This document shows positions 1 through 41,043 of a DNA stretch of 43,927 nt, one piece after another. Within the stretch, counting starts at the first letter, position 1; every line of letters starts with the position of its first letter. The translations under genes and the position numbers were made by a program. Source of the DNA: Candidatus Cloacimonadota bacterium (GTDB taxonomy: Bacteria > Cloacimonadota > Cloacimonadia > Cloacimonadales > JAMOQM01); the NCBI GenBank assembly GCA_027064005.1, contig JAMOQM010000080.1, positions 1 through 43,927 of the forward strand, read 5' to 3'. The notes below the pieces were generated by a model. That model worked only from the letters and a program-made list of their open reading frames with translations, was not told the DNA's origin and did not search any database.

Positions 1-873
1 ATCGGGGTACCAAAAACTCTTTTTAGGACTAATTCCAAGCATCTGTATTCGATTGTAGAATTAGGAAGTAATCATCCGGGAGAAATTGCAATTTTAGCAA
101 AAATAGTTAATCCTGAAATCGGGATTATAACTTCGGTTGGAGCTTCTCACATTGAGTATTTTGGTTCGATTAAAAATATTTTAAATGAAAAATTATCACT
201 TTTGAACTATTCAAATATGAAGATAATTTCAGGAGACAATGATTTGTTATTTGAATCAAAACAAAATGCAATTACGGTTGGGAAAAATGAACGGAATGAT
301 TATCATTATAAGATTGTTTCTCAAGATTTTGAATCTACTAAAATTGAAATAGCTGATAATAAATATGACATTCCCACAATTGTGAATTCCAAAATAGAAG
401 ATGCTGCTTTAGCCATAGTTTGTGCAATTGTGGAAAAATATTCTCAGGAAGAAATACAAAAAAAATTAAATCTTGAGTTGGAAATTCCTCAAAGAATGGA
501 AATTATCAAATCAAATGGCCGAATTCTAATTGTTGATTGTTATAACGCCAATTATGATTCAATGAACTCGGCTATTAATTTTTGGAAAAGCTATAAAGCA
601 GAATTACCGCACGTTGCCTTTTTGGGAGATATGCTTGAGTTAGGTCGGGAATCGGAAAAATATCATAAAAAAATTGGAACTTCTTTATTAGGAATAAATA
701 ATAAAGTTTATTCAATAGGAAAGTTTTCAAAAGCATTTAATTCAATAAAACATTTTTCAAATGTTGACGAATTAATTGAGAAAATGAATTTTGTTTCGAT
801 TCCAAGAAATTCAGTTGTGCTTATTAAAGCATCACATAGTATTCATTTGGAAAAATTAATTAAAAGGTTGTAA
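1..873 (+). CDS. murF: UDP-N-acetylmuramoyl-tripeptide--D-alanyl-D-alanine ligase, 5'-truncated by window edge
   Basis: Frame is open from base 1 (IGVPKTLFRTNSKHLYSIVELGSNHPGEIAILAKIVNPEIGIITSVGASHIEYFG...), so the ORF-track start at 202 is internal. MurF-type motifs (ELGSNHPGEI, VGASHIEYFGS, DCYNANYDSM, LGDMLELG) and dcw context. Confidence 0.93.
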   Translation: MGVPKTLFRTNSKHLYSIVELGSNHPGEIAILAKIVNPEIGIITSVGASHIEYFGSIKNILNEKLSLLNYSNMKIISGDNDLLFESKQNAITVGKNERNDYHYKIVSQDFESTKIEIADNKYDIPTIVNSKIEDAALAIVCAIVEKYSQEEIQKKLNLELEIPQRMEIIKSNGRILIVDCYNANYDSMNSAINFWKSYKAELPHVAFLGDMLELGRESEKYHKKIGTSLLGINNKVYSIGKFSKAFNSIKHFSNVDELIEKMNFVSIPRNSVVLIKASHSIHLEKLIKRL

Positions 874-875
874 GT

Positions 876-1982
876 ATGTTATATCATCTTTTTTATCCAT
901 TAGCGAACTATAATATTATCTTTAATGTTTTCCGCTATGTTACATTTAGGTCAATTGCGGCTTTTTTAACAGCGTTTATTTTTGCTATCTTTCTCGGTCC
1001 GAAATTCATTAAATTGCTGAAAAAAAATAATGCCGTTGAGGAAGCAAGTGAGGTTCGTCCCGAATCTCATAAAAAGAAAGCCGGAACGCCGACAATGGGC
1101 GGACTAATAATTTTATCAGGTTTAATGCTCTCATCTCTATTATGGAATAATCTTACAAGCAGTTACATTTTACTTTTATATTTATCGGTTGGGATTTTAG
1201 GTGCATTGGGCTTTTTAGATGATTATTTAAAAAATTTCAAACATAAAAAAGACGGTTTAATTGCTCGTTATAAACTTTATGGACAAATTGGTTTGGGTTT
1301 GTTGGTAGGTTTATATCTTTATTACGATCCAAATTCTGTGAATATTGCAAAAGTATCGATCCCGTTTTTGAAGAATATTTTCCTTAATTTCGGAATATTT
1401 TTTGTGCCTTTTGTAATTTTTATGATAACGGCTACATCCAATGCTGTAAATTTGACGGACGGATTAGATGGAATGGCTGCCGGTAATGTGGGTTTGACAG
1501 CTTTAGGTTTAGCCGTTTTTTCTTATATGAAAGGTAATTTTAAATTGGCAACATATTTTAATTTGGATTATATTTCACAAGGTGGAGAATTAACTATATT
1601 TATTTTTGCTCTTATCGGAACGATTCTCGGATTTCTTTGGTATAATACTCATCCTGCTGAAATTTTTATGGGTGATACCGGTTCTTTGGCTTTAGGAGGA
1701 ATTTTAGCGGTTATAACAATCTTATTAAGAGAAGAAATTGTTTTTGGAATTATGGGCTTTGTTTTTGTCGTTGAAGCTGCATCATCGCTTATTCAGAGAT
1801 ATTATTTTAAATACACGCGAAGAAAATTTGGAAAAGGTAATGAAATAAGATTTTTTTTAAAAGCACCTATACATCATCATTATGAAGAAAAAGGAATGTC
1901 TGAGCAAAAAATAGTTATTCGATCATGGATATTAACCACATTATTTGTTGCAATTGGATTAATAACATTAAAGGTAAGATAG
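876..1982 (+). CDS. mraY: Phospho-N-acetylmuramoyl-pentapeptide-transferase
   Basis: Multi-TM protein with KKKAGTPTMGGL, FLDDYLK, NLTDGLDGMAAG, FMGDTGSLALGG, APIHHHYE motifs. Confidence 0.97.
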   Translation: MLYHLFYPLANYNIIFNVFRYVTFRSIAAFLTAFIFAIFLGPKFIKLLKKNNAVEEASEVRPESHKKKAGTPTMGGLIILSGLMLSSLLWNNLTSSYILLLYLSVGILGALGFLDDYLKNFKHKKDGLIARYKLYGQIGLGLLVGLYLYYDPNSVNIAKVSIPFLKNIFLNFGIFFVPFVIFMITATSNAVNLTDGLDGMAAGNVGLTALGLAVFSYMKGNFKLATYFNLDYISQGGELTIFIFALIGTILGFLWYNTHPAEIFMGDTGSLALGGILAVITILLREEIVFGIMGFVFVVEAASSLIQRYYFKYTRRKFGKGNEIRFFLKAPIHHHYEEKGMSEQKIVIRSWILTTLFVAIGLITLKVR

Positions 1983-3341
1983 ATGAAAATTGAAGGAAAA
2001 TTATTTGGAATTGTTGGTGCGGCAAGATCTGGTTTGGCTGTCGCAAATAAGATTACTTCTTTAGGGGGAAAAGTTTTTATAACTGATTCTAAAGATGAAA
2101 AATCGGTAATTAATGCAGATTTAATAAAAGAAAAATACGATTGCGAATTTGGAGAAAACAGCGATAAAATATTTAAATGTGATTATATTTTAATTAGTCC
2201 CGGTGTGCCTCGAAAAATTCCAATTATAAAAAAAGCGATAGAAAAAGGGATTGAAGTTATAAATGATATTGAACTTTTTTATCGTCTAAAATATCCTGAA
2301 ACTGAAATAATTGCCGTTACCGGTTCTAATGGTAAAAGTACAACCGTTTCATTAATTCAACACATTTTTGATAAATCTCAATTCAAATCAATTTTAGCCG
2401 GAAATATTGGAACGCCGATTAGTATTTTTCCTATTGAACATCCGGGAATAGATTTTGCTGTTTTGGAATTGAGTAGTTTTCAAATTGAGAGTCTTATTAA
2501 ATTCAAAGCTGACGTAGCTATTTTATTAAATATTACTCCTGATCATCTCAATAGATATAAAGATATGGAAGATTACGCTACAACGAAATTTGGAATATTT
2601 AAAAACCAGACTAATAATGATTTGGCGGTAATTTGTTCAGATGATAAAGAAATTGAAAAGAACATGATTTCTTTAGAATCGGAGAAGCAGGAATTTTCCT
2701 ATTTTAATGAAAAAGATGCTTATTTTAAAGATAATAAAATATGGATAAATAATAAATATCTACAACATAAGTTTGATTTATCTAAAACGTCTTTTATAGG
2801 AATTCATAATATTTATGACGCAATGGCTGCAATTTTGGCAGTTTCTAAATTTATTAATGATCCTGCAATTATTCAAAACGCTTTGGAAACTTTTCAACCT
2901 TTGGAACATAGAATGGAGTTTGTTACTTCAATCGATGGCATTAAATTTTACAATGATTCCAAAGCAACAAATACCGATGCTGTTCATTTTGCCTTAAATT
3001 CATTTAATGAAAGAGTAAATATAATACTTGGCGGTTCTGATAAAGGAGAAGATTTTGGCGTTTTAACCGATGATCTTAATCAAAAAGCTGATAAAATCTT
3101 TTTGATTGGAGCAACGAGAAGAAAAATGTTGGACGAATTCATCGGAGTAAAAAGAGATATAATTTTGTGTGCTGATTTAGAGGATTCAATTGAAAAAGCT
3201 TTTTATCTAGCAAAAAAAAACGGGGTGGTTATTTTATCGCCGGCATGTGCAAGTTTTGATATGTTTGATGATTTTGAGGACCGCGGAAATAAATTTAAAG
3301 AAATTGTTTGGAAAATAAAAGAAGGGATTATTGATGTTTAA
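1983..3341 (+). CDS. murD: UDP-N-acetylmuramoylalanine--D-glutamate ligase
   Basis: Mur ligase motifs ITGSNGKST-like (VTGSNGKSTT), LELSSFQIE, NITPDHLNRY, NDSKATNTDA, LSPACASFDMF. Confidence 0.96.
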   Translation: MKIEGKLFGIVGAARSGLAVANKITSLGGKVFITDSKDEKSVINADLIKEKYDCEFGENSDKIFKCDYILISPGVPRKIPIIKKAIEKGIEVINDIELFYRLKYPETEIIAVTGSNGKSTTVSLIQHIFDKSQFKSILAGNIGTPISIFPIEHPGIDFAVLELSSFQIESLIKFKADVAILLNITPDHLNRYKDMEDYATTKFGIFKNQTNNDLAVICSDDKEIEKNMISLESEKQEFSYFNEKDAYFKDNKIWINNKYLQHKFDLSKTSFIGIHNIYDAMAAILAVSKFINDPAIIQNALETFQPLEHRMEFVTSIDGIKFYNDSKATNTDAVHFALNSFNERVNIILGGSDKGEDFGVLTDDLNQKADKIFLIGATRRKMLDEFIGVKRDIILCADLEDSIEKAFYLAKKNGVVILSPACASFDMFDDFEDRGNKFKEIVWKIKEGIIDV

Positions 3342-4494
3342 AGCAGATAAACAAGTATATTTTTCGCAACCAAATCAAATGTTGATTGTGATTTATGTTT
3401 TATTATCATTATTCGGTTCTTTTATATTTTTTGATATTAGCACCAATAATGTTGCTTTAAAACCGATTATTAAACAAATAATTTGGTTAATGTCAGGTTT
3501 TTCGTTCGTTTTTATTATTTTGAGATATAATTTAGCATTTAAAATTGAAAAAATTTTCAATAAAAAAATTATTTATTTTCTGCTTTTATTTTCCTATATT
3601 TTGTTATTTTGGGTGTTAAATAAAGGCGTTGTTGTGAATGGAGCAAAAAGATGGATAAATATCTTTGGAATTTCCTTCCAACCAAGCTCTTTAATTATGC
3701 TTATCTTGATAATGTATTATGCCGAGATGTTATCAAGAAAAGTAGAACTTATTAGAAGTAAAAAATTTAGTGATATCGTAAAGGTTTTTGCCTTACCTTC
3801 CATCATTACAGGAATCATATTCATTCTTATTTTTAAAGAAAAACATTTAAGCATCTTATTAATCACATCTGCAACTATTTTTACTATGATTTATGTTGCC
3901 GGACTTCGAAAGCGATATTTTTTATCTATAATATTAATCGGTATTCTTGGGTTGGGACTTATTTTATTCGGTTCTTCCAAGAAAAATTATCGTAATGAAA
4001 GAATTAATCTTTGGAAAAAATATAACTTCTTTTTAAGAAAATATAACGATTATGATAAGATTAGCGTTTCTTCACGACAAGTTAAGGAAAGCTTAATTGC
4101 AATTACTGCCGGAGGTCTGGCAGGTAAAGGATTTTCCGGTGGAAGAAGCAAATATAAATTTTTATCGGAAGTAACTTCCGATTACATTTTTTCAATTGTG
4201 AATGAAGAGTTTGGTTTTATTGCCGGAACATTAGTTATTATCGGCTATTTATTTATTTTCTTGTTTTCAATACAATCTGTAGGATTTCATGAAAGTCTAT
4301 ATTTAAAATTTCTAACTATTGGAATATCTATGCTTATTTTTTATACGGTTTTGGTTAACATTGGGGTTGCTACTTCTTTATTACCATCAACCGGAGTACC
4401 TTTGCCTTTTTTAAGTTACGGTGGAACCGCTTTCTGGATAAACAGCATCGAATTGGGCATTTTAACTAATTTAACAAAGAAGACTAAAATATGA
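3334..4494 (+). CDS. ftsW: Peptidoglycan glycosyltransferase FtsW (SEDS family)
   Basis: SEDS features: KRWINIFGISFQPSS, LLPSTGVPLPFLSYGGTA; position between murD and murG. ATG at 3334 preferred over TTG at 3331. Confidence 0.92.
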   Translation: MFKADKQVYFSQPNQMLIVIYVLLSLFGSFIFFDISTNNVALKPIIKQIIWLMSGFSFVFIILRYNLAFKIEKIFNKKIIYFLLLFSYILLFWVLNKGVVVNGAKRWINIFGISFQPSSLIMLILIMYYAEMLSRKVELIRSKKFSDIVKVFALPSIITGIIFILIFKEKHLSILLITSATIFTMIYVAGLRKRYFLSIILIGILGLGLILFGSSKKNYRNERINLWKKYNFFLRKYNDYDKISVSSRQVKESLIAITAGGLAGKGFSGGRSKYKFLSEVTSDYIFSIVNEEFGFIAGTLVIIGYLFIFLFSIQSVGFHESLYLKFLTIGISMLIFYTVLVNIGVATSLLPSTGVPLPFLSYGGTAFWINSIELGILTNLTKKTKI

Positions 4495-5567
4495 AACAAA
4501 ACATTATCATTGCCGGTGGAGGAACGGGTGGGCATATTTCTCCTGCAATTTCAATTGCCAAAGAGTTGGAAAAATTAGGTTACAATATAATTTATGTTGG
4601 TAATAAAAATAGTATGGAAGAACGGATTGCTCATAAAAATAATATTAAATTTTGTAAAATCAATGTTCAAAAATTATTTCGGAAATTTACTGTCAAACAT
4701 GTCCTCTTTCCTTTTAAATTGGTGGCATCAATAAAAAAATCTATAGATATAATTATTGAAAATAAAGCTATTGCCTTCATTGGAACCGGAGGTTTTGTAA
4801 GCGGACCGGTAGGATTTGCCGCTCATTTGATGAGATTGCCTATATTTTTACAAGAACAAAACAGTTTCCCGGGACTTACCACCAGAAAATTATCAAAATA
4901 TGCAGAAATGATTTTTTTAGGAAATAAAGGAGCGGAAAAATATTTCAAAAAAGAAAAGATTATCTTTTCAGGAAATCCAATAAATAGTACAGAATCGACA
5001 TTAAGCAAAGAAGAAATTTTGCAAAAAATTAATTTTAATCCCAGCAACAAAACTATTTTTGTGATGGGGGGGAGTCAAGGATCAAAAACTCTGAATGATA
5101 TTTTGGAAAAAATATTGCCCGAAATTCTCAAACAAAATTTTAATGTCATTTGGCAAGTTGGGAAAAATAATAAAGATTTGATTGAAAAATATTCTCACAA
5201 AGATAATCTTTACCTTTTTGATTTTTCTTATGAAATTAATCGGTTTTATAAAATTTCCGATTTATTAATTTCACGGGCAGGTGCTTTGACTTTGAGTGAG
5301 ATTGAATATTTTAAAGTTCCATCCTTGTTAATTCCATATCCTCACGCAGCCGGGAATCATCAATATCATAATGCTGTTGAAATGAAGAATAAAGGCCTTT
5401 CCGAGATTATTTCCGAGAAGGAATTAAATCCTGAAATTTTAATTGATAAGATAAAATTAATGTTAAAAAATTCGGATAAATATCTTCCTAACTTTCCTGA
5501 GGTTAAAAATTCTTCTCTGATAATTTCTCAATATATTAATAATTCGTTGAAGAGGATAAAATGGTAA
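4491..5567 (+). CDS. murG: UDP-N-acetylglucosamine--N-acetylmuramyl-(pentapeptide) pyrophosphoryl-undecaprenol GlcNAc transferase
   Basis: GGGTGGHISPA, GTGGFVSGPV, QEQNSFPGLTTR, SRAGALTLSEI motifs. Confidence 0.97.
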   Translation: MKQNIIIAGGGTGGHISPAISIAKELEKLGYNIIYVGNKNSMEERIAHKNNIKFCKINVQKLFRKFTVKHVLFPFKLVASIKKSIDIIIENKAIAFIGTGGFVSGPVGFAAHLMRLPIFLQEQNSFPGLTTRKLSKYAEMIFLGNKGAEKYFKKEKIIFSGNPINSTESTLSKEEILQKINFNPSNKTIFVMGGSQGSKTLNDILEKILPEILKQNFNVIWQVGKNNKDLIEKYSHKDNLYLFDFSYEINRFYKISDLLISRAGALTLSEIEYFKVPSLLIPYPHAAGNHQYHNAVEMKNKGLSEIISEKELNPEILIDKIKLMLKNSDKYLPNFPEVKNSSLIISQYINNSLKRIKW

Positions 5568-6913
5568 AAAGTATTTTGTTTTTGGGTGTTGGTGGAATTG
5601 GTATGAGTTCTTTGGCTAAATATATGCTAAATAAAGGATATAAAGTCTATGGATATGACCGTAATTTTTCAGAACTAATTAAAAAATTAGAAAACCTTGG
5701 AATGAATTTTGTTGATGCAGAGAAAATCATGGAATCTTCTTTCATTTCAAAAATAGATTTAATTGTCAGGACTTCAGCTATAAAAGAAAATGCCGATATT
5801 TTAAAAGAAAGTAAACGACAAAATGTACCGGTTATAAAAAGATCAAAATTATTGGGTCAAATATGCTCTTTTGGACATCAAATTTGTTTAGCCGGAACTC
5901 ATGGTAAAACAACTACAACTTCGATGACCTCAAAAATTTTCGAAACCGCAAATTTGAAACCTACCGTCTTTGTCGGTGGAGAAATGATTGATTTGGACGA
6001 TAATTTTCTCAAAGGTAATGATAATATTTTTGTTGTCGAAGCTGATGAATACGATAGATCATTTCATGATTTACGTCCCATGATTGGCGGAATTACAAAT
6101 ATTGAAGAAGATCATCTGGATATTTATAAAAATTTGCAAGATATAAAAGAAAGTTTTATGGAGTTTGCGTCTAAAATTCCTTTTTATGGTTGTCTAATTT
6201 TACCGTCGGATTTATCTTTTATCCAAGAATTTAAAAAAAATATGCTTTGTAAAGTTGAAACTTTTGGGTTTAGTGAAAAATCGAATTGGACAGTAAAGAA
6301 CATCAAAAAAATCGGATTTTCCGTTAAATTTGACGTAAAGCATAATGACGAATTTTATACAACAATAGAATTACCTACAATCGGAGAACATAATATTTTA
6401 GATGCTTTGATAGCGATTGCAGTTTCCTATAATTATGGAATAGACAAAAAATCTATCAAAACAGGATTAAAAAATTATCAAGGTGTAAAAAGGCGATTAC
6501 AAAAATTGGGGAATAAAAAAAATGTTTTATTTTTAGATGATTATGCCCATCATCCGTCAGAAATATCAGCAACTTTAACCGCATTAAAAGCAAATGTTAA
6601 GCAAAGAATTGTTACTATTTTTCAACCGCATTTATTTTCTCGGACTCGTGATTTTTATGAAGAATTTGCCAAAAAATTATCAATTGCCGATTATATTATT
6701 CTAACTGAAATTTATCCTGCCAGAGAAAAACCAATCGAAAACGTAAATTCAAAAATGATAGCCGATTTGATTGAAAAAGACGTAGTTGTTACAAAAGATA
6801 AAAATGAATTATTTGATAAAATTAATGAAATTATTCAACCGAATGATATTGTGATAAGTCTTGGTGCAGGAACAATATCCAAATGGATGCATGAGTTTTA
6901 TGAAAAATATTGA
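5561..6913 (+). CDS. murC: UDP-N-acetylmuramate--L-alanine ligase
   Basis: GVGGIGMSSLA, AGTHGKTTTTSM, EADEYDRSFHDL, DDYAHHPSEI, FQPHLFSRT motifs. Confidence 0.97.
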   Translation: MVKSILFLGVGGIGMSSLAKYMLNKGYKVYGYDRNFSELIKKLENLGMNFVDAEKIMESSFISKIDLIVRTSAIKENADILKESKRQNVPVIKRSKLLGQICSFGHQICLAGTHGKTTTTSMTSKIFETANLKPTVFVGGEMIDLDDNFLKGNDNIFVVEADEYDRSFHDLRPMIGGITNIEEDHLDIYKNLQDIKESFMEFASKIPFYGCLILPSDLSFIQEFKKNMLCKVETFGFSEKSNWTVKNIKKIGFSVKFDVKHNDEFYTTIELPTIGEHNILDALIAIAVSYNYGIDKKSIKTGLKNYQGVKRRLQKLGNKKNVLFLDDYAHHPSEISATLTALKANVKQRIVTIFQPHLFSRTRDFYEEFAKKLSIADYIILTEIYPAREKPIENVNSKMIADLIEKDVVVTKDKNELFDKINEIIQPNDIVISLGAGTISKWMHEFYEKY

Positions 6914-7748
6914 TTGTTTAATTTCTAAAGTTGATTTGAAAGAGTTAAGCCATCTTAAAGTTGGTTCAATGGCGGATGTGTATTTTCCTAAAAGCTATGA
7001 AGATTTAAAATTAATTTATGAAAAATTTGGTGATGAAGAAAAATTCCCAATCGGAGGTGGATCTAATACTCTATTTAAAGATGAACACAACAAGATATTG
7101 ATTTCAGATAAATTTTTACCAAAGAAAATAAAAATTGCAGGAAATATCATCAAAGTATCTTCTAATTATAATATTAATGCTTTTCTAATGAAAATGGCTG
7201 CAAATAATTTGGGTGGGTTAGAATTTTTAGCCGGAATCCCGGCAAATATTGGTGGACTGACATTTATGAATGCCGGAGCTAATAACAAGGAAATCTTTCA
7301 ATTTATAGATTCTGTCCTAGTTTTAGAAAATTCAGGAAAGCAAAGATTGTTTAGAAAAGATGAATTAAATTTGAACTATAGATGCTCAAATATTAGAGGT
7401 TTTATTTTGGAGGTAAATTTCAAATTAGATATTGATTCAAAAGAAAATATTATGAAGAAAATCGCCATGAATATCATGAAAAGAAAAAATTCTCAACCAA
7501 TTACAAAACCTAATCTCGGATGTTTTTTTAAAAACCCAAGTGGAAGTTCTGCCGGAAAATTAATTGATGATTTAGGATTAAAAGGACTTCAGGTCGGTGA
7601 TGCGATTGTCTCTGATAAACATGCAAATTTTATTATCAATAATGGAAATGCCTCATTTCAAAACATTATTTATTTGACAGAATTGATTAAGCAAAAAGTA
7701 ATAAATCAATTTAATATAAAATTGGAATTGGAGATTAAAATTGTTTAA
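6900..7748 (+). CDS. murB: UDP-N-acetylenolpyruvoylglucosamine reductase
   Basis: GGGSNTL, AGIPANIGGLTFMNAGA, YRCSNIR, CFFKNP..SAGKLIDDLGLKG. Start placed at ATG 6900 (MKNIDCL) overlapping the murC end, rather than the ORF-track 6861. Confidence 0.93.
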   Translation: MKNIDCLISKVDLKELSHLKVGSMADVYFPKSYEDLKLIYEKFGDEEKFPIGGGSNTLFKDEHNKILISDKFLPKKIKIAGNIIKVSSNYNINAFLMKMAANNLGGLEFLAGIPANIGGLTFMNAGANNKEIFQFIDSVLVLENSGKQRLFRKDELNLNYRCSNIRGFILEVNFKLDIDSKENIMKKIAMNIMKRKNSQPITKPNLGCFFKNPSGSSAGKLIDDLGLKGLQVGDAIVSDKHANFIINNGNASFQNIIYLTELIKQKVINQFNIKLELEIKIV

Positions 7749-8520
7749 TAAAAAAAATAGAGGTTATGCTTTAATTAAAAGAAGAGGGAATTTTCGCTAC
7801 TTTGTAAGATTTTTCCTATTTGTTTCAACAATCGGCATAATTTCTTTTTTCGGATATAATCAATTGCAAAAAATGGATTATTTTAATGTTCGCAAAATTA
7901 TAATTAAAGGTAATCAAAATGTACCAAACCAATATATTTATGAGTTTGTTAAAAAATACAAGGGCCTCAATATTTTTAAATGCAAAAGATATAAAATTGC
8001 CGATGATTTATCCGGAATTGTAAGAATAAAATCTGTCAGTGTCAGTAAAAAATTACCATCTACTTTGGTGATAACTATTAATGAAAATAAGGCAAAATTT
8101 ATTCTAAAAACGAGAGATGGATTTCTTATCCCTGTTTCAAAAAATAATATAATCTTAGACAATGCCGAATTTTATATTGATGATAATGCTCCGATAATTG
8201 ATGTTTCTACAAGTTTGGATAGTATAAAAGTCGGGAGCGTTTACCAAGATAGTTTATTTGAAAAAATAAAAAAAATACATAAAAAAATGTTTGAAGTGCA
8301 AAATATGATTGTTAATAGAATTTCAGAATACTCTCTTACCAAAGATAATAATTTAATTTTTACCTTAGACAACGGAGTCAAAGTAATTCCGGATACTTCT
8401 CAAGTTAAGGAAACTCTTGATAAATTGACTTTTGCATTACTGAATTCATACGTAAAAAAATATCAAACTATTGACTTGAGATATAGCGAAATTGGTGTGA
8501 TAACATCGGAGGAAAAATGA
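7741..8520 (+). CDS. ftsQ: Cell division protein FtsQ/DivIB family (POTRA-containing)
   Basis: Short N-terminus with one TM, POTRA-like segment (YFNVRKIIIKGNQNVPNQYI...), position between murB and ftsA; probable TTG start overlapping murB. Confidence 0.8.
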   Translation: MFNKKNRGYALIKRRGNFRYFVRFFLFVSTIGIISFFGYNQLQKMDYFNVRKIIIKGNQNVPNQYIYEFVKKYKGLNIFKCKRYKIADDLSGIVRIKSVSVSKKLPSTLVITINENKAKFILKTRDGFLIPVSKNNIILDNAEFYIDDNAPIIDVSTSLDSIKVGSVYQDSLFEKIKKIHKKMFEVQNMIVNRISEYSLTKDNNLIFTLDNGVKVIPDTSQVKETLDKLTFALLNSYVKKYQTIDLRYSEIGVITSEEK

Positions 8521-9788
8521 GCGAATTATCGATAATTACTGCTTTGGATTTAGGTTCTTCAAGTATAAAAGTTCTTATTGCCGGCATTACAGAAGATTTT
8601 CATCTTGAAATATTAGGAAAATCAGAGGTTAAAACCCCTAAAAATTCATTTAATAGAGGTAAAATTCAAGATATTTCTAAAACGGCGAATGAAATTAGAG
8701 TGGCAATTAGTAAGGCTGAAGAAGATGCCAAAACTAAAGCTCAAAACATTTATTTGTCTATTTCAGGTGAGTTTTTACGTAGTGAAAATACTTCTAAAAA
8801 AATTAGTCTTAGTGATACAGCCAAAATTATTACAACTGAAGATGTTGAAAATTTGAGAAGAACAACAACAAGCTATTTGATTAGGCAGAAAGGTCATGAT
8901 AATGAAATTGTTATTCATGATATTCCGCAATCTTATAATGTGGACGAACAAGAAGGAATTAAAAATCCGGTGGATATGTCCGGATATTCTTTAGAAAATC
9001 ATCTTCACGTTATTATGGCTTCAGAAAATCCCTATCAAAATATAATTAGAACAATTGAAAAAGCCGGCTATTCAATTAAACAAGCGGTTGCTTCTCAATT
9101 AGCGTCTTCAATTTCCGTATTGGAAGACCAGGAAAGGGATCTCGGAGTAATATTATTGGATATCGGAGCCGGTACAACAGATATTTCCGTTTATTTGAAA
9201 GGTAATATGAAATTTTCTAAAGTAATACCTTTGGGCGGAAATGATATTACAAATGATTTAACAATTGGACTTAGAACTTCGACAGAATTTTCAGAGAAAA
9301 TTAAAATTAAAAACGGATCATTAAAACCTTCTTTAAAAAATAAAGATGAGGAAATAGAAATTCAAGGTATTGCCGGAAGACAAGTAGTGAAGAAAAAATT
9401 AAGTTTTATTTATCAAATTATTTATTATAGATCTGATGAGATTTTGGAAAAAGCTTATCAAGATGTTATGAAAAGTACAAATACAAATTTAATTAATGCA
9501 GGTTTAGTTCTTACTGGAGGAACGTCACTTATGAATAATATAGGTATGTTTGCCGAAGAAAAATTTAACCTTCCAACCCGAATCGGTTATCCGAAAATAG
9601 ATAGAATAACTAATGATATTAAAGAGCTGAAAAGCCCAAAATATGCAACAGCTATTGGTCTTTTATATTTTGGACTTGACTCTTTTAAGTCAAAAGAAAT
9701 AAAAATATCGAAAATGAAATCTGAAAATAATATAAATTTTAAAGGTATCTTTACTAAAATGAAAAATTTTATTAAAGAGCTTTCATAG
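8517..9788 (+). CDS. ftsA: Cell division protein FtsA
   Basis: Actin-fold motifs ALDLGSSSIKVLI, LLDIGAGTTDISVY, LTGGTSLMNNI; immediately before ftsZ. Confidence 0.95.
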   Translation: MSELSIITALDLGSSSIKVLIAGITEDFHLEILGKSEVKTPKNSFNRGKIQDISKTANEIRVAISKAEEDAKTKAQNIYLSISGEFLRSENTSKKISLSDTAKIITTEDVENLRRTTTSYLIRQKGHDNEIVIHDIPQSYNVDEQEGIKNPVDMSGYSLENHLHVIMASENPYQNIIRTIEKAGYSIKQAVASQLASSISVLEDQERDLGVILLDIGAGTTDISVYLKGNMKFSKVIPLGGNDITNDLTIGLRTSTEFSEKIKIKNGSLKPSLKNKDEEIEIQGIAGRQVVKKKLSFIYQIIYYRSDEILEKAYQDVMKSTNTNLINAGLVLTGGTSLMNNIGMFAEEKFNLPTRIGYPKIDRITNDIKELKSPKYATAIGLLYFGLDSFKSKEIKISKMKSENNINFKGIFTKMKNFIKELS

Positions 9789-9800
9789 TTAGGAGGAATT

Positions 9801-10958
9801 ATGATAAATATTGATAATGATGACTTATTCCCTGATGTATTAATTAAAGTTTTAGGTGTTGGTGGAGGCGGTGGAAATGCTGTCGAAACAATGATTAAAA
9901 ATAAATTGTCAAAAGTAGAATTTATTGTAGCAAATACCGATTTAAGTGATTTGAAAAATTCCAGTGCGAAAATTAAAGTTCAAATTGGGAAAAAAGTAAC
10001 TCGCGGTCGCGGTGCCGGAACTAATCCTGAAAAAGGAAGATTAGCTGCTGAAGAAAGTGAAGACGAAATTAAGAAAATTTTGCAAGGTGCAAATTTGTTG
10101 ATTTTATCCGCCGGAATGGGTGGAGGTACCGGAACCGGAGCAACGCCGGTGATTGCTAAAATTGCTCAAGAAATGAATATTCTAACTTTGGGAATTGTTA
10201 ATACTCCTTTTAAACACGAAGGTGTTTTGAGAAATAAAAGAGCTGAAGAAGGAATAATTGAATTAAAAAAATATATTGATACTTTATTGATAATCCCAAA
10301 TGATAAATTATCTTCAATATATAAGCAAATGTCATTATTTGATGCTTTCCAAAAAGCAAATGAGGTCCTTTATCAAGCTACAGAATCAATTGTTGATATT
10401 ATCAATACCAATGGTGCTATTAATGTCGATTTTGCCGATGTTGAGACTACTTTGAACAATAAAGGATTTGCTTTATTCGGAATTGGAGAATCAAAATTTG
10501 AGAAAGATAGTGATAATAAGGCAAAAGCAATTGAAGCTGCAAATGCTGCTATTAATAATCCGCTTTTGGAAGATATCACTTTATCTTCATGTAAAGGTCT
10601 GCTAATTAACGTTGCTTCTGATTTTAATTTGGGAATGCAAGATTTTGATGCAATTATGGAAGTAATTACTAATGAAGCCGGTGGAACTCCAAATATTATT
10701 CAAGGTGTAGTTCTTGATGAAAAATATAAAGATAAAATCCGCGTCTCAATTATCGCTACAGGTCTGCATAATGAAAAATTTGAAAAAACAGATAATGAAG
10801 ATAATGTCTCTGTTATGAAAGCAAGTAGCGAAGATGATGATTTTAAAAGAATTAAGATGAATACACAACAAAAATCGACTCGCATAGAACCGGATTATCC
10901 AAAAATAGATAACGAAAATTATGATGTTCCGGCTTTTGCAAGAAAAGTAATTGATTAA
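9801..10958 (+). CDS. ftsZ: Cell division protein FtsZ
   Basis: Tubulin signature GGGTGTG, NTDLSDL, IPNDKL; conserved C-terminal DVPAFARK tail; strong AGGAGG ribosome-binding site just upstream. Confidence 0.97.
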   Translation: MINIDNDDLFPDVLIKVLGVGGGGGNAVETMIKNKLSKVEFIVANTDLSDLKNSSAKIKVQIGKKVTRGRGAGTNPEKGRLAAEESEDEIKKILQGANLLILSAGMGGGTGTGATPVIAKIAQEMNILTLGIVNTPFKHEGVLRNKRAEEGIIELKKYIDTLLIIPNDKLSSIYKQMSLFDAFQKANEVLYQATESIVDIINTNGAINVDFADVETTLNNKGFALFGIGESKFEKDSDNKAKAIEAANAAINNPLLEDITLSSCKGLLINVASDFNLGMQDFDAIMEVITNEAGGTPNIIQGVVLDEKYKDKIRVSIIATGLHNEKFEKTDNEDNVSVMKASSEDDDFKRIKMNTQQKSTRIEPDYPKIDNENYDVPAFARKVID

Positions 10959-33416: not shown

Positions 33417-34553
33417 CTAATCAATAATCACCTGTACTTTTATTGGTTCCTCGACTCCAATTTTATCTCTGAAAGATCGAATAATATTAAGAGAATTGGT
33501 AGTAATTTGATGACCATTTGGGATAATAACCATACCGGTTTTTGATTTTATATCTTGGAGTGTTGTCATATAAATATCCAGCTCATCGGAATTTACCAAT
33601 TTTACAACTTTATTGATACTACTATTTTTAAATGAATACAAAGTTGATAAAATACTTGGATTATATTCGCCATCTTGTTTTTTCATTTTATCAACCGCTT
33701 TAATACTGGAATTGGTTTCCAAAAGATAATAGTCAAAATCCGAGGCAATTTTTAGGATTTGAGCTCCGAGATTTAATCTGTTTGAACCTGAATTTTCAGG
33801 ATAGTCTTTAAAAGGTTTTAATTGATTTCCTATAATGAAGGAAATTCCTCTTAACCTTGGGATTTTCATCAACAATTTTTTGCCCAAATTTGGGAATTCA
33901 CTGAATAATTTTTCTTCATCGTCAGTTAGTTTTTCATGAGAAATTGCTTTAAGGAGAATCTCTTTTGGGATAATTACATTCCCAATCTGTGACAAAGATG
34001 AAGCTAATTCAAATTCCCATTTATTTTGGATTTGTAAATCATCAAGAATGAAAGAAACGTATTTTTTGATTCTTTGGGAACGGTTAAATGCAACCGGATT
34101 AACGATACTCAATAATTCTAATAACAATTCAATTGAACCTTTCAGTGTTTTTTCCAAAAGTTCTTTTTCGGAATTCCGTAATCTTCTAAGTTCAAATGCA
34201 TCATAAATTGCTTTAGTCAAAATATTCATCGGGCAAGGTTTTGTAAGAAATCTGAAAATGTCTCCTCGATTTACAGCATCGGAAGCGGTTGTTAAATCGG
34301 CATTTCCCGTAAGCATAATTTTAATAATATCAGGGTATTTTTTACCAACGGTTTCAAGGAGTTGTACTCCGTTCATTCCGGGCATTCTCATATCGGAAAT
34401 TATGACATCAAAATTACTGTCTTTCTCAAGAATTTCCAAAGCTTCCAATCCGCTTTGAGCAGTTGTCAAATCCAATTTTTTCTTTAATTGTCTCTTTAAA
34501 GCCAAAAGTATGCTTTTTTCATCATCAACTAATAATAATCTATTCATTTTCAC
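33417..34553 (-). CDS. Response regulator with degenerate (HD-lacking) HD-type output domain
   Basis: REC with intact Asp (VIISDMRMPGMNG). Output NPVAFNRSQRI...WEFELASSLSQIGNVIIP...LGAQILKIASDFD... resembles an RpfG-like HD fold but has SQIG where HD is expected. Confidence 0.8.
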   Translation of the reverse strand: MKMNRLLLVDDEKSILLALKRQLKKKLDLTTAQSGLEALEILEKDSNFDVIISDMRMPGMNGVQLLETVGKKYPDIIKIMLTGNADLTTASDAVNRGDIFRFLTKPCPMNILTKAIYDAFELRRLRNSEKELLEKTLKGSIELLLELLSIVNPVAFNRSQRIKKYVSFILDDLQIQNKWEFELASSLSQIGNVIIPKEILLKAISHEKLTDDEEKLFSEFPNLGKKLLMKIPRLRGISFIIGNQLKPFKDYPENSGSNRLNLGAQILKIASDFDYYLLETNSSIKAVDKMKKQDGEYNPSILSTLYSFKNSSINKVVKLVNSDELDIYMTTLQDIKSKTGMVIIPNGHQITTNSLNIIRSFRDKIGVEEPIKVQVIID

Positions 34554-35742
34554 TCCGAACTTTTTTGATTAATTCATCAATATTAATATCCTTAAATACA
34601 AGTTGAAGATATTTTCTATTTAATTCAACTTTGAAATTGGGGTTGGTTTTATTATCAAGGTAATCTGCTAAATAGATTGTCCCTAATAAGTAAGAATCGG
34701 TACATTCAGATAATTCAGGATGATGATGAAAAAGTATGCTTTGAATAACCTTTGTACTAAATCCCCACAGACCAAGAATATAGGCACCAACTTGAGAATG
34801 AGTGAATGAAAGATATTTAATCTCCAATTCTTCGAGATTTAGATTTTTATCTTTTTCTGCGGAATTAAGCAAAACTTCATATTTTTTTCCTAAATTCATG
34901 ATTAAAACTATTTTTCCTAAATCATGAAACATTGAAGTAATAAAAATATAATTCTTATCAATGTCTTCCATTTCCAAATTTTCAGAAATTGCTATAGAAT
35001 ATTTGAGGACATTTGAACTATGTTGATAAACTTTTTTAATTGCAGCAATTTGTGTTTCGGTTCCTTTTAAATTTTTAAAAATAGATGAAGTAAGTATAAT
35101 ATCTTTAATTAAGTCAATTCCCATAAAACTAATTGCTTGGCTGATTTTAAAAACTTTATTTGATAAACCAAAATATGCCGAGTTAACCATCTTTAAAATA
35201 TCAGCAATTAAACTCGGGTCACGAGAAATTATTTTAGCCAAATCATTCAATGAAGATTCAGGATCTTTAATCTTTTTAGATAATTCAAGGTATATTTCCG
35301 GTAAAGGTGGAAGATAAGATAAATTGTTAATTACATTTTGAAGCTCTTTATTTTTAATGTAAGTGTTGATTATATTAATTTGAGTTACTACAGCAATAAT
35401 TGATTCCGCACTAATTGGTTTAATTAATAATTGATGAGCTACTTCAAAACTGGAATAAATTAATTCTTTATTAGCATATCCGGTTAAGATTATTCTAATT
35501 ATACCGGGATATTTTTTTTTAACTTTTGATAATAATTCAAATCCTGTTTCTTCCGGCATTTTCATGTCGGTAATAATTACATCAACATTATTTTCTTTAA
35601 GACTTTCAAAAGCTTCCAAAGGATTTGTAAAAAAATACATTTTCCATTCTTTATCGTATTTTCTAAAAGTTCGTTTTAAGCTTTTTATAACGCTTAATTC
35701 ATCGTCAACGAACATAATCCTTAATCTACTGATTTCTTTCAT
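34540..35742 (-). CDS. Response regulator with HDOD output domain
   Basis: REC (VIITDMKMPEETG) then LPPLPEIYLELSKKIKDPESSLNDLAKIISRDPSLIADILKMVNSAYFG (HDOD hallmark), FHDLGKI, FHHHPE. Confidence 0.88.
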   Translation of the reverse strand: MKEISRLRIMFVDDELSVIKSLKRTFRKYDKEWKMYFFTNPLEAFESLKENNVDVIITDMKMPEETGFELLSKVKKKYPGIIRIILTGYANKELIYSSFEVAHQLLIKPISAESIIAVVTQINIINTYIKNKELQNVINNLSYLPPLPEIYLELSKKIKDPESSLNDLAKIISRDPSLIADILKMVNSAYFGLSNKVFKISQAISFMGIDLIKDIILTSSIFKNLKGTETQIAAIKKVYQHSSNVLKYSIAISENLEMEDIDKNYIFITSMFHDLGKIVLIMNLGKKYEVLLNSAEKDKNLNLEELEIKYLSFTHSQVGAYILGLWGFSTKVIQSILFHHHPELSECTDSYLLGTIYLADYLDNKTNPNFKVELNRKYLQLVFKDINIDELIKKVRSENE

Positions 35743-35747
35743 ATTTA

Positions 35748-36104
35748 TTATTCTCTATATTTATTGATTGTTTTTAATAGCATTTCTCGAGAAATCGGCT
35801 TTTCTAAAATTTCTATAGCCCCCAATTCCTTGCCTATTTGTTGAATTGCCGTATCTTTAAGACCTGTCAAAAGTATTACATTGAGATCAATTCCTTTATC
35901 TTTCATTTCCGATAAAAGATCCAATCCGTTAATATCTTTCATTGCGATATCCATTATAACCAAATCGTAATTATCAGAATTAAGATATTCGTAAAAATTA
36001 GAAGGATTATCGACAAAATCTGCGTCAATTTCTGATGAAGTAATTATGCGTTTATAAGATTTAAGGATATTGATGTCATCATCAATAAATAGTATTTTCA
36101 TCAT
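35748..36104 (-). CDS. Stand-alone receiver (CheY-like) protein
   Basis: 118 aa REC only: ILFIDDDINILKSY, DLVIMDIAMKDINGL, LLTGLKD, LEKPIS. Confidence 0.9.
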   Translation of the reverse strand: MMKILFIDDDINILKSYKRIITSSEIDADFVDNPSNFYEYLNSDNYDLVIMDIAMKDINGLDLLSEMKDKGIDLNVILLTGLKDTAIQQIGKELGAIEILEKPISREMLLKTINKYRE

Positions 36105-37740
36105 TCCCGCCTTTTTTCTTTCTTTTCGATTTATGTTTTATTGGGAGTTCAATCAAGAATTCCGTACCTTTTCCCACTTCGCTTTTAACATTAATTTTAC
36201 CATTATGTTTGTTAACAATAATATTGTAAGAAATATTTAATCCCAAACCCGTCCCCTTTCCGATTTCTTTTGTTGTAAAAAACGGATCGAAAATGGAATG
36301 TAAATTTTCTTCAGGAATCCCCGGACCGTCATCGCTAATTTTGCAAAAGATAGACTTATCGTTTGCATAAGTTTCGAGTAATATTTTACCTCGATTATTT
36401 GGATCCCTTTTTTGCTCTTGGATTGCCTGGGAAGCATTGACAATAATATTCAGAAGAACTTGATTTATTTCTCCTCCGATACATTCGATTAGAGGTACTT
36501 GACCAAATTTCTTTTCAACATCACAATAATATTTAATTTCATTTTTAGCTATAGTCAAAGTTGCTTCGAGAGCCTTATTGATATCATAATTAGAAGAAAC
36601 TTTCGTGTTATCAATTCGGGAGAAATTCTTAAGGTTTTGCACAATATTCAGAATCCTCTCTAATCCCTCTTTTGTCTCGGAAAAAACATCATCCAAATCT
36701 TCATAAATATCCTTAATTTCTTCATTTTTCATTTCATTAATTTCGTCAATAATCTCCTTGAAATTATCTTTAACGATATCTTTGGTTGATTCCAAATAAT
36801 TTTCGAGAAGTTTTTGATATTCCTTAAATGAAGCTAAATAATCTTTAATAACGTCGAGGTTGAGAGTTATAAATCCCAAGGGATTATTAATTTCATGAGC
36901 GATTCCTGCCGACAAATTACCAATCGATGCCATCTTTTCTTGTTGGACTAAATTGCTTTGTGTTTTTTCTAATATATTATGTTCGACTAATAATTTATCG
37001 TAGAGTTTTTCAATTCTATTTTGTAACCTTTTTTCTTCTGTTATGTCTGAAACAAATCCGAAAATAAGATCTCTTTTAATTGCAACATTAAATAATTTTT
37101 GAATAATAACTTTTCCTGTAAATTCGGTTTTATCCATTTTTCTAAGTTGTAATATTACGTTATTTAAAATTAAGTTTTCGGAAGTATTTATTTTAATATC
37201 GTTTATTATCAAATCTTTATAAACATTTATTTTCTTAATATTATGAGTAAAATTTATCTTAAAAAGTTCATGGAAGGCATTGTTTATATTAACTAAATTT
37301 CCGCCTAAATTGGCAATAAATACCGGATTATTTGATTTTACAAAAATTGATTTATATATTTCATTAGAAAAAGCTTGGTTGATTATTTGGGTTAAAAATA
37401 AAGCAAATGGGAAAATATTTTTTAATATTACTGATGAATCAACAAAGATTATATTAGCTCTTCTGGCAATTTTGATATATTTAAGAATTGTCTTTTGGTC
37501 AGTGCAATAAATTGCCGGGCGTTTATCTGCTAAAGCTAATTTTAGTTTGAGAAAACCTAAAAAAGGAGTTGTTAAAATCTTGTCATCAATAATAAGAATT
37601 TGGGATTGGATTTTGAGAATGGAATTCGGATCTATTTTTTGTTCATATTGGATAATTTCAACTTCTTTTAACTTCTTCATTTCATCACAAAAGGAATTAA
37701 AAGCCTCTATGTTTTCACTAAAAAAAGCCAATTTCAGCAT
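36082..37740 (-). CDS. Cytosolic hybrid-like histidine kinase (pseudo-receiver - PAS - HisKA - HATPase)
   Basis: HEINNPLGFITLNLD H-box, LLNIIVNASQAI N-box, ISDDGPGIPEEN, GTGLGLNISYNII. PAS-like segment about aa 130-235; N-terminal about 120 aa is REC-fold-like without a clear receiver motif set. Confidence 0.88.
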   Translation of the reverse strand: MLKLAFFSENIEAFNSFCDEMKKLKEVEIIQYEQKIDPNSILKIQSQILIIDDKILTTPFLGFLKLKLALADKRPAIYCTDQKTILKYIKIARRANIIFVDSSVILKNIFPFALFLTQIINQAFSNEIYKSIFVKSNNPVFIANLGGNLVNINNAFHELFKINFTHNIKKINVYKDLIINDIKINTSENLILNNVILQLRKMDKTEFTGKVIIQKLFNVAIKRDLIFGFVSDITEEKRLQNRIEKLYDKLLVEHNILEKTQSNLVQQEKMASIGNLSAGIAHEINNPLGFITLNLDVIKDYLASFKEYQKLLENYLESTKDIVKDNFKEIIDEINEMKNEEIKDIYEDLDDVFSETKEGLERILNIVQNLKNFSRIDNTKVSSNYDINKALEATLTIAKNEIKYYCDVEKKFGQVPLIECIGGEINQVLLNIIVNASQAIQEQKRDPNNRGKILLETYANDKSIFCKISDDGPGIPEENLHSIFDPFFTTKEIGKGTGLGLNISYNIIVNKHNGKINVKSEVGKGTEFLIELPIKHKSKRKKKGGNDENTIY

Positions 37741-37902: not shown

Positions 37903-39306
37903 ATGAAAACAAAAAATTATAGTTCTATAATTTTGCTTTTTGTCCTACTATCTTCCACTATATTAGGTATTGGAACATTAGGATATTATTTTATAGAAAA
38001 AGGTTGGACGCTTCTGGATTCATTTTATATGACTTTTATTTCGCTTACAACAGTTGGGTTTGGTGAAGTTAAAACTCTTTCGAGCGATGGTCGTATTTTT
38101 ACAATGTTTGTAATTTTTTTGGGAGTAGGTTTAATTGCGATATTTTCGGCAACTATTACGCATTTAGTGATTGATAACGAATTAACCGGATCTTATTGGA
38201 GGAAGAAAATGATTAAAAGAATAAATGCAATGAAAGGACATTATATTTTGTGCGGATTTGGAAGTATAGGAAGTACAACTGCAGTCAAATTAGACGAATT
38301 GGGAATACCGTTTGTGATAATAGATAATAATCAAAAATCCATAGATTTTGCAAAACAAATGAGTTATCCCTATATATTTGGAAATGCAAACGATGATGCC
38401 ATTCTAATTGAAGCCGGAATCGAAAGGGCAAAAGGTATTTCTATTTGCACTTCAGATGAAGCGAATAATCTCTTCATCACACTTGCCGCAAGAGAATTAA
38501 ATTCCGAAATCTATATTTTAGTTCAAGCAAATAGCCTTCGAATTGAAAAACGTTTAAATAGGGCAGGAGCAAATCAAGTTGTGTATCCCCTAAAATTAGG
38601 AGGAAAACAAATAGCTGATATTATTTCCTTAGATTATGGAAAAGAAAAATATGATTTAGGATTAATTCATTCAGATCAGGATTTTTTTGGATATCGATTT
38701 AAGAAATTTACAGAATTTCTGGATGAAAAAATTACGATTGGTGAAATTGTAAAAAAATCAAAAACAATTAGCTGTATAACTTTAAAAAAGAATATTGGTA
38801 CTTTGATTGAAAATCCTCCAGCGGATACAATCTTAAATAAAGGCGATACAATACTCTTATTGGAGAATAACCTCGTCGGTACTGAAGATCCCTTTGCAAA
38901 CGATGTGGAAGCAGTTTTTTCGTGGAATGAAGCTTATAGTGTCGGGATTCCCTCGTTGGATGCTGAACATCGAGAGTTGTTAAAATTTGCTAATAAATTT
39001 GCAACCGCCATCAAGCATAATAAAGGTAGAGAACATTTGGATTATCTCTTTATGAATTTACTGGATTATACAAAAATTCATTTTACTGATGAAGAAAAAT
39101 TATTTGAGAAATATAACTATCCGAAAAAAGAAGAGCATTTTGCGGAACATCAACAATTATTGCAAACCGTGATAAATTTAAATAGAGAAAGAAATGTTTA
39201 TTTCCCCAGTAATATCACGTTTTTTTTACTTGCTTGGATTAAAGACCATATTAGCCAACAAGATAAATTATATTCAGAATTTCTGATTAAGAAAGGTGTA
39301 AAATAA
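37903..39306 (+). CDS. Two-TM K+ channel - RCK (TrkA-N/TrkA-C) - bacteriohemerythrin fusion protein
   Basis: Two TM helices flanking TTVGFGE; RCK Rossmann HYILCGFGSIGSTTAVKLDELGIPFVIID; TrkA-C-like domain; C-terminal hemerythrin ligands DAEH, HFTDE, HFAEH, HISQQD in one uninterrupted ORF. Confidence 0.93.
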   Translation: MKTKNYSSIILLFVLLSSTILGIGTLGYYFIEKGWTLLDSFYMTFISLTTVGFGEVKTLSSDGRIFTMFVIFLGVGLIAIFSATITHLVIDNELTGSYWRKKMIKRINAMKGHYILCGFGSIGSTTAVKLDELGIPFVIIDNNQKSIDFAKQMSYPYIFGNANDDAILIEAGIERAKGISICTSDEANNLFITLAARELNSEIYILVQANSLRIEKRLNRAGANQVVYPLKLGGKQIADIISLDYGKEKYDLGLIHSDQDFFGYRFKKFTEFLDEKITIGEIVKKSKTISCITLKKNIGTLIENPPADTILNKGDTILLLENNLVGTEDPFANDVEAVFSWNEAYSVGIPSLDAEHRELLKFANKFATAIKHNKGREHLDYLFMNLLDYTKIHFTDEEKLFEKYNYPKKEEHFAEHQQLLQTVINLNRERNVYFPSNITFFLLAWIKDHISQQDKLYSEFLIKKGVK

Positions 39307-39324
39307 GAGAAATTAGAGGTGCCA

Positions 39325-41043
39325 ATGTTTTCTAAAAATTATAAATTAATAAGTGAATCTCCGCAAAAATATCAAATTAAGAATAGTGTTTGTCGGTTTT
39401 CCAAAAACTATCTGACTCTTTTATCTAAAGAAGAAACTCGAACTTTCGGTTATCATAAAAATGGAAAAATCAGTACAATCTGCAGTAAATATTATCCTAA
39501 AAAAAATGCTGAGAAAATGATTGAAAATTTTGTTTCTAATCAGGATACTATCGTCATCTTTGGTATTTCTTGCGGTAACGAAATTGCTCTTTTAAGTAAA
39601 AAGTATCCAAATAAAAGGAAAATTGTAATCGAACCGGATAAGAATCTTTTTAATTATTTTTTGCGATATTTTGATTTAGAAGAAATGCTAAATGTCGAAT
39701 TTTTGGTTGGCTGGGAAGATTACGAAATTATAGCCAAAATAGATTTAAAGTTACCGCAATTTGATATTTTAGAAAATAAACAAATTGACCCTGTGATCGC
39801 TAATTATTTTTCTTCGCTTAAAAAACGTTTATTTCATCAAAACCAATATGAGTTTTCCGAAAAGTGGAAATATCCTAAATTTGCATTTTCCAATCCTAAA
39901 ATATTATATATTGACTCTTCTTATGTTTTAACTAAAGAATGCCTTTTTGCATTTCAAAAACTAAATATTCAATACAAATATATTCATATTGAACAAGATT
40001 CTTATAATTATGGAGAATTTATTAAAAATATTTTACAGATAATTTCCGAATTTAAACCTGATTTTGTGATGACAATTAACCATCTCGGTTTCGACAATGA
40101 AGGGCGTTTTACCGAAATGTTGGAAGAATTGGAACTGCCTTTTGTCTCTTGGTTTGTCGATAGCCCGAATGTTATTTTGGACAGTTTTCATCGCAACGTT
40201 TCTGATTATGCTAATATATTTGTTTGGGATAAAGATTACATTGATGATTTAAAAAATGTTGGCTATAAAAATGTAGATTATCTTCCTTTAGCTACTTCTC
40301 CTGAAATATTTTTTCCAACAGAAAGTTCTAAAATTATAGATGTTTCATTTGTAGGAAGCAGTATGTTTTATGCAATAAATAAGAATATGAAGAGTTTTAG
40401 TCATCGACCGGATTTGTTAAATTTATTTGAAATTACGGCTCAACATTTTCTAAGTAATAAGTTTAGATTTGTTTCGCAATCTATTGAAAAATTGTCAGAT
40501 AAGTATAGATATTATTTTGATTCTAATGATCAGAAAAAAGATTTTGAAGCGGCAGTTTTATGGAGAGCTACCCAAATTTATCGACTTTCAGGAATAAAAA
40601 AATTAGCTGAATTTAATCCTAATATTTATGGAGACCCAAATTGGAAATATCTCTTGGACGAAAGATATAATTTGAATAGTGAACTTTCTTATTATGATAA
40701 TCTTTCTGAAATGTATAATATGTCCAAAATCAATTTTAATATGACGAGCAGACAAATGAAGAATTCTGTAAATCAACGTATTTTCGACGTTCCGGCTGTT
40801 GGCGGTTTTTTGCTTACTGATTACAAGTCTCAATTAGAAGAAATTTACGATTTGAAAACAGATATTGCTACTTTTAAAAATGTGGATGAAATTCCATCTT
40901 TGATAAAATATTATTTGAAAAATCCTGAAGTTAGAGAGAAAATGTCTAAAAATGCTTATAAAAAAGTTGTTGAAAATCAGACTTATGAGCTGAGGATAAA
41001 AAAACTTGTTCTGATAATGCAATCCAGATATCTTAATTTATAG
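39325..41043 (+). CDS. Two-domain protein: Maf/DUF115-like N-terminal segment plus CgeB/DUF3880-like glycosyltransferase
   Basis: N-terminal TIVIFGISCGNEIALLSKKYPNKRKIVIEPDKNLFNYFL; C-terminal RIFDVPAVGGFLLTDYKSQLEEIYDLKTDIATFKNVDEIPSLIKYYLKNPEVREKMSKNAYKKV. ATG 39325 preferred (AGAGG RBS) over GTG 39319. Confidence 0.75.
   Translation: MFSKNYKLISESPQKYQIKNSVCRFSKNYLTLLSKEETRTFGYHKNGKISTICSKYYPKKNAEKMIENFVSNQDTIVIFGISCGNEIALLSKKYPNKRKIVIEPDKNLFNYFLRYFDLEEMLNVEFLVGWEDYEIIAKIDLKLPQFDILENKQIDPVIANYFSSLKKRLFHQNQYEFSEKWKYPKFAFSNPKILYIDSSYVLTKECLFAFQKLNIQYKYIHIEQDSYNYGEFIKNILQIISEFKPDFVMTINHLGFDNEGRFTEMLEELELPFVSWFVDSPNVILDSFHRNVSDYANIFVWDKDYIDDLKNVGYKNVDYLPLATSPEIFFPTESSKIIDVSFVGSSMFYAINKNMKSFSHRPDLLNLFEITAQHFLSNKFRFVSQSIEKLSDKYRYYFDSNDQKKDFEAAVLWRATQIYRLSGIKKLAEFNPNIYGDPNWKYLLDERYNLNSELSYYDNLSEMYNMSKINFNMTSRQMKNSVNQRIFDVPAVGGFLLTDYKSQLEEIYDLKTDIATFKNVDEIPSLIKYYLKNPEVREKMSKNAYKKVVENQTYELRIKKLVLIMQSRYLNL

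Follow-up and report, generated by a model that had tools for sequence, protein, structure and literature searches.

Among bacterial hemerythrin sensors, those characterised have chemotaxis proteins and second-messenger enzymes as their targets. Can such a di-iron domain also act directly on an ion channel? The question is raised by one gene in the window, the stretch of 43,927 nucleotides of Candidatus Cloacimonadota DNA analysed here (contig JAMOQM010000080.1), in which a pore of the potassium channel type, an RCK domain and a bacteriohemerythrin are joined. We favour, with moderate confidence, a ligand-gated K+-type channel with a bacteriohemerythrin attached to its RCK domain, in which a redox or O2 change at the di-iron centre gates the pore of an octameric assembly whose basal state would be set by a nucleotide.

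The open reading frame (37903-39306, +) runs through 467 codons with no internal stop and encodes a 53 kDa product. Pfam places Ion_trans_2, TrkA_N and hemerythrin in this order, all exceeding the curated cut-offs. An earlier note on this DNA had described one uninterrupted 467-aa frame containing pore, RCK and bacteriohemerythrin, with the last starting near 38910. Both points were confirmed (ORF, Pfam, NCBIfam), and the hemerythrin domain begins at about aa 339 (38917). The features of the gene are as follows.

37903-39306 (+): full-length channel-RCK-hemerythrin gene, 467 aa, 53 kDa (ORF, Pfam, NCBIfam)
37915-37995 (+): transmembrane helix 1, aa 5-31 (hydropathy; AlphaFold2 helix 3-31)
38050-38067 (+): selectivity filter T50-V-G-F-G-E55 (Ion_trans_2 match; 22-sequence alignment)
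38083-38175 (+): transmembrane helix 2, aa 61-91 (hydropathy; AlphaFold2 helix 61-91)
38198-38202 (+): GGAGG as internal Shine-Dalgarno, 6 nt ahead of the Met103 ATG (sequence; family-wide test)
38209-39306 (+): predicted Met103 product, soluble RCK-hemerythrin, 365 aa, 41.7 kDa (M103 in 22/22; start codon and Shine-Dalgarno kept in RCK channels)
38242-38589 (+): RCK N-lobe (TrkA_N aa 114-229) with GxGxxG at 118-123 and acidic D141 ending strand 2 (Pfam; 22-sequence invariance; motif meaning from PMC3510474)
38602-38868 (+): RCK C-lobe, aa 234-322, TrkA_C-like by fold only (no Pfam TrkA_C; predicted structure)
38869-38916 (+): linker between RCK C-lobe and hemerythrin, variable and of low confidence (12-34 residues in the family; pLDDT <50 at aa 323-330)
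38917-39285 (+): bacteriohemerythrin domain, aa 339-461, four-helix bundle (NCBIfam; TM 0.90 to DcrH-Hr 2avk)
38968-38970 (+): iron ligand H356, in DAEH (invariant 22/22)
39079-39093 (+): iron ligands H393 and E397, in HFTDE (invariant 22/22)
39136-39150 (+): iron ligands H412 and H416, in HFAEH (invariant 22/22)
39247-39264 (+): iron ligands H449 and D454, in HISQQD (invariant 22/22)

In the host genome, which is 100% complete in 153 contigs, there is one copy of the fusion and one stand-alone hemerythrin. No second fusion was found in 59 genomes of its own order or in 125 genomes of its phylum. The plasmid sequences searched contained no fusion, and viral contigs scanned with the hemerythrin gave no relative. 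When genome contigs were scanned with the window protein as a single sequence, there was no match. An alignment-based scan was required, and on named genome contigs it returned two full-length fusions from Spirochaetota MAGs, L034 (40% identity) and L035 (36%). Ten further fusions came from searches around the genomes of these two, one from a draw of 398 Thermodesulfobacteriota genomes and eight from the 82-genome phylum-level group of a related channel, L036. The total, including the window protein, is 22 fusions in about four bacterial phyla, the 21 others being distributed among Spirochaetota, Thermodesulfobacteriota and one further phylum-level group. Since the genome draws were samples, the true count is probably greater than 22. 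The channel-hemerythrin fusions are a real family, apparently undescribed.

In a tree of the channel part, the 22 fusions fall into one clade of 24 rows together with L036 (Gpa_8) and L120 (G157), which lack hemerythrin (support 100/100; branch of 1.26 changes per column). The window protein forms its own long branch inside this clade, and no hemerythrin ORF was seen near L036 or L120. The simplest history is a single fusion followed by two losses of hemerythrin. These two members indicate that the channel itself does not require hemerythrin, and they suggest that the domain is a dispensable regulatory module. Channel and hemerythrin have diverged in parallel, as their distances among the 22 fusions are correlated (r = 0.89; none of 2000 permutations as high). 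However, shared descent alone yields such a correlation, so the value supports one old fusion and not functional coupling.

Ion_trans_2 matches aa 20-89 (E 1e-14), and the AlphaFold2 helices at aa 3-31, 37-49 and 61-91 describe two transmembrane segments flanking a P-loop. The selectivity filter reads TVGFGE, with Phe replacing the Tyr of the canonical TVGYGD, and across the 22 fusions it follows the pattern T-[VI]-G-[FY]-[GSR]-E. Three fusions (L034, L142 and L143) carry TVG[FY]RE, with Arg for the last Gly, and seven (L164-L170) carry the Ser variant TIG[FY]SE. GsuK is weakly selective (PNa/PK about 0.2), which its authors attribute partly to the filter Phe (PMC3510474). Because the window protein has Phe as in GsuK, its selectivity for K+ may also be weak, and we regard it as a K+-type pore that is probably only weakly K+-selective. 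Of the K+ pore with TTVGFGE described in the earlier note, the two-TM Ion_trans_2 pore stands, but firm K+ selectivity is not supported, given the GsuK precedent (PMC3510474).

The second transmembrane helix leads into an RCK domain with both an N-lobe and a C-lobe. The N-lobe is recognised as TrkA_N (aa 114-229; 100 bits, E 1e-28), whereas Pfam TrkA_C has no match in the window protein. The predicted structure, however, aligns with full-length MthK across about 320 columns including the C-lobe (Foldseek best match 6oly, E 4.6e-17, 324 columns; GsuK and KtrA next), so the chain does have a TrkA_C-like C-lobe, one that the Pfam model misses. The module had been called MthK-like and its second lobe TrkA-C-like. 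These descriptions are right for the fold over pore and RCK, but the Pfam assignment of the C-lobe fails and the ligand is not that of MthK. The Ca2+ ligands E210 and E212 of MthK lie opposite Q208 and N210 in the PDB sequence search alignment, and the partner of D184 is C182 or T183, according to how one column is placed. Across the family these columns hold mostly R, Y/E/T and C/A or L. Gating by Ca2+ in the manner of MthK was rejected, since none of the three ligands is kept. A nucleotide motif is found instead: G118, G120 and G123 of GxGxxG are invariant, and position 141 is D or E in all 22 fusions. The same GxGxxG...D/E motif in RCK2 of GsuK binds nucleotide (PMC3510474), and its retention throughout the family suggests that the basal ligand of the RCK domain is probably a nucleotide.

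The C-terminal domain is matched by Pfam Hemerythrin at aa 348-457 (E 1e-8) and by the NCBIfam bacteriohemerythrin model NF033749 at aa 339-461 (104 bits; cut-off 84). In the PDB sequence search, GsuK and MthK match the first 245 residues and DcrH-Hr the last 130. Modelled in isolation by AlphaFold2, the domain is a four-helix bundle that superposes on DcrH-Hr (2avk) with a TM score of 0.90 and an rmsd of 1.7 A; DcrH-Hr and other bacteriohemerythrins are its best matches in both sequence and fold. The di-iron motifs DAEH, HFTDE, HFAEH and HISQQD are exactly as previously claimed. All seven ligands (five His, one Glu and one Asp: H356, H393, E397, H412, H416, H449 and D454) are invariant in 22/22 fusions, while the mean pairwise identity of the domain is 36%. 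Besides these seven, the hemerythrin columns that never vary in the 22 are just D353, E355 and E398, ten in total, and the chance of finding the seven ligands among ten invariant columns of about 121 is about 2e-9. Bacteriohemerythrins generally retain these iron ligands, so the invariance here means that the fused copies have not decayed. Conservation in the 22 proteins supports a sensory di-iron domain, presumably iron-loaded, attached to a gating ring.

The stoichiometry of this ring would depend on a predicted second start within the gene. Met103 sits at the boundary of pore and RCK, has GGAGG 6 nt ahead and is invariant in 22/22 fusions. Among 121 related channels, the same column holds V in 47, M in 43, L in 29 and I in 2. 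Val is encoded by GTG in every case (47) and Leu by TTG in 26 of 29, so that 73 of 76 V/L positions have start-type codons against 19.5 expected from the same genes. A start codon is thus present at this column in 116/121 channels. For 93% of the 116 start codons, a properly spaced Shine-Dalgarno match of 4 nt or more lies ahead, whereas synonymous shuffles give 20% and in-frame Met codons elsewhere 19%, in a set whose rows are related and hence not independent. For the 13 fusions in this test the synonymous null was higher (0.55); the residues themselves favour GGAG, so the evidence in the fusions is mainly the invariant Met. The signature (window 38188-38211; same column in L024-L148), M, V or L encoded nearly only by ATG/GTG/TTG after a Shine-Dalgarno sequence, may be used for genome-wide annotation of soluble RCK products. 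The soluble RCK of MthK starts at Met107 (PMC9440719, PMC2920069), and most single-RCK prokaryotic channels need an internal start according to the GsuK paper (PMC3510474), a statement which the pattern in the 121 channels supports. In the window protein, the internal start predicts a soluble RCK-hemerythrin subunit of 42 kDa, which would give eight hemerythrins, and eight iron sites, per channel.

How the hemerythrin might touch the ring is less well defined by the model. The full-length AlphaFold2 prediction, built with 40 sequences, has a pLDDT of 83 and a pTM of 0.50; the domains are confident and their relative placement is uncertain. The linker before the hemerythrin varies from 12 to 34 residues across the family and falls below pLDDT 50 at aa 323-330. 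With such a linker and pTM, the model offers no defined coupling surface.

A histidine kinase / response regulator operon is transcribed away from the channel gene, across a gap of 162 bp. This operon (33417-37740, -) encodes a histidine kinase and receiver-only, receiver-HDOD and receiver-HD_5 proteins. On the other side, a DUF3880 / glycosyltransferase-like gene (39319-41043, +) begins 12 bp 3' of the channel gene, and co-transcription is probable. Further away, cell wall and division genes at 202-10958 (+) resemble a dcw cluster (mraY, murD, ftsW, murG, murC, murB, ftsQ, ftsA, ftsZ; named by eye from translations). Neighbours vary among the fusion lineages, and no conserved neighbour common to them points to oxygen or to a function. 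In one relative, G541, another hemerythrin gene (L149 7401-8207, -) lies 5 bp upstream of the fusion and seems to share its operon; its product has 269 aa, with the hemerythrin domain at the N-terminus. Neither cytochrome bd subunit I nor heme-copper oxidase subunit I (COX1) was matched in the host genome, which fits an anaerobic host. Without either terminal oxidase subunit, O2 is more likely to be a warning signal than a respiratory substrate.

These observations suggest how the channel may work. Four full-length subunits would form the pore, and four soluble RCK-hemerythrin chains translated from Met103 would join them; the resulting ring would be an octamer bearing eight di-iron sites along its rim. 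A nucleotide of the NAD(H), ADP or ATP class in the Rossmann lobe of the RCK would set the basal state of this ring. If the di-iron centre were reduced or oxidised by O2 (or by NO or peroxide), the helix bundle would be altered, and the change would shift the ring via the RCK C-lobe and the flexible linker, so that the pore opens or closes. In an anaerobic host, oxygen exposure might in this way be converted into a change in membrane potential or K+ content. We take gating by O2 or redox state to be the best explanation of the architecture. The earlier note proposed O2 binding as the trigger, which is not supported by the characterised fusions. The hemerythrin-diguanylate cyclase Bhr-DGC and the hemerythrin-HD-GYP protein Bhr-HD-GYP answer the redox state of the iron: they are active when reduced (diferrous) and far less active or off once oxidised, with no stable O2 adduct detected (PMC9388753, PMC8846402). 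By analogy with these proteins, iron oxidation is more likely to be the trigger than O2 binding as such.

It is also conceivable, if unlikely, that the hemerythrin is a passenger which scavenges or stores O2, NO or iron beside the membrane and has no part in gating. Single-domain proteins make up most bacterial hemerythrins, and O2-delivery or protective roles have been proposed for them (PMC2556348; PMC4257069); in the present clade the domain was lost twice and its linker varies. However, the fusion to a gating ring and the intact iron site persist across several phyla, a fixed position on the RCK ring would be of no benefit to a scavenger, and a stand-alone hemerythrin is already available in the host genome.

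Hemerythrin-type di-iron sites react with NO and peroxide too, and the domain might sense one of these rather than O2 or the general redox state. Hemerythrin-like proteins of M. smegmatis are reported to be linked to the H2O2 response (PMC4295536, PMC4660385). We consider this reading rather improbable, since the best matches of the domain, DcrH-Hr and other bacteriohemerythrins, belong to the O2/redox group and no pointer to NO was seen in the neighbourhood. Still less probable is an ordinary nucleotide-gated RCK channel in which the hemerythrin is purely structural, for example a ring stabiliser. The RCK nucleotide motif is indeed fully retained, but a bundle of this kind would not require seven invariant ligands in a domain that otherwise varies. 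Finally, an artefact of assembly or gene calling joining two genes is refuted, because 22 genomes assembled independently share the architecture, and the fusion is genuine.

In a wider proposal, the family may consist of prokaryotic channels on whose gate a di-iron sensor, reactive towards gas or redox state, acts directly, the eight hemerythrins of each octameric ring working jointly with a nucleotide signal, so that anaerobes turn oxygen exposure into an electrical event; on this wider proposal our judgement is evenly balanced. If true, oxygen or redox state would set membrane potential and K+ content through a direct link, and no second messenger would be needed. The family would also provide a prokaryotic, structurally tractable example of oxygen-responsive channels, which in animals are the subject of much debate. 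The two hemerythrin-less relatives (L036 and L120) are natural controls, and together with the clear internal start they make the idea directly testable.

The fusions of hemerythrin described in the papers cited here involve chemotaxis, GGDEF, HD-GYP, kinase and CheY-like domains (PMC2556348, PMC9388753, PMC8846402), and channels are unmentioned in the 2008 and 2022 hemerythrin papers. Full-text literature searches found no paper on a hemerythrin-channel or hemerythrin-RCK fusion, although an unremarked database listing of the architecture is possible; the earlier statement that no such K+ channel fusion has been characterised is apparently correct. The best structural match is MthK, a Ca2+-gated channel that likewise has a two-TM pore and one RCK, and whose internal start (Met107) corresponds to Met103 here. 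Unlike MthK, the window protein has no Ca2+ residues, a Rossmann nucleotide motif and an added hemerythrin. GsuK of Geobacter sulfurreducens, activated by ADP/NAD+, is the best PDB sequence match for the RCK and shares GxGxxG...D/E and the filter Phe (PMC3510474), but each of its chains has two RCK domains and lacks hemerythrin, whereas the window protein has one RCK and an internal start. The chemotaxis receptor DcrH of Desulfovibrio vulgaris likewise carries a C-terminal bacteriohemerythrin with the same ligand set as the cytoplasmic sensor of a membrane protein; its output is a chemotaxis signalling domain, and that of the window protein an ion channel. In the hemerythrin-diguanylate cyclase of V. 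cholerae and the hemerythrin-HD-GYP protein of Ferrovum, hemerythrin is also fused to an output whose activity follows the redox state of the iron (PMC9388753, PMC8846402). Those outputs are enzymes with an N-terminal hemerythrin, whereas here a C-terminal hemerythrin is placed on a gating ring. The pore-RCK and hemerythrin parts are each of known kinds, and their combination is apparently new.
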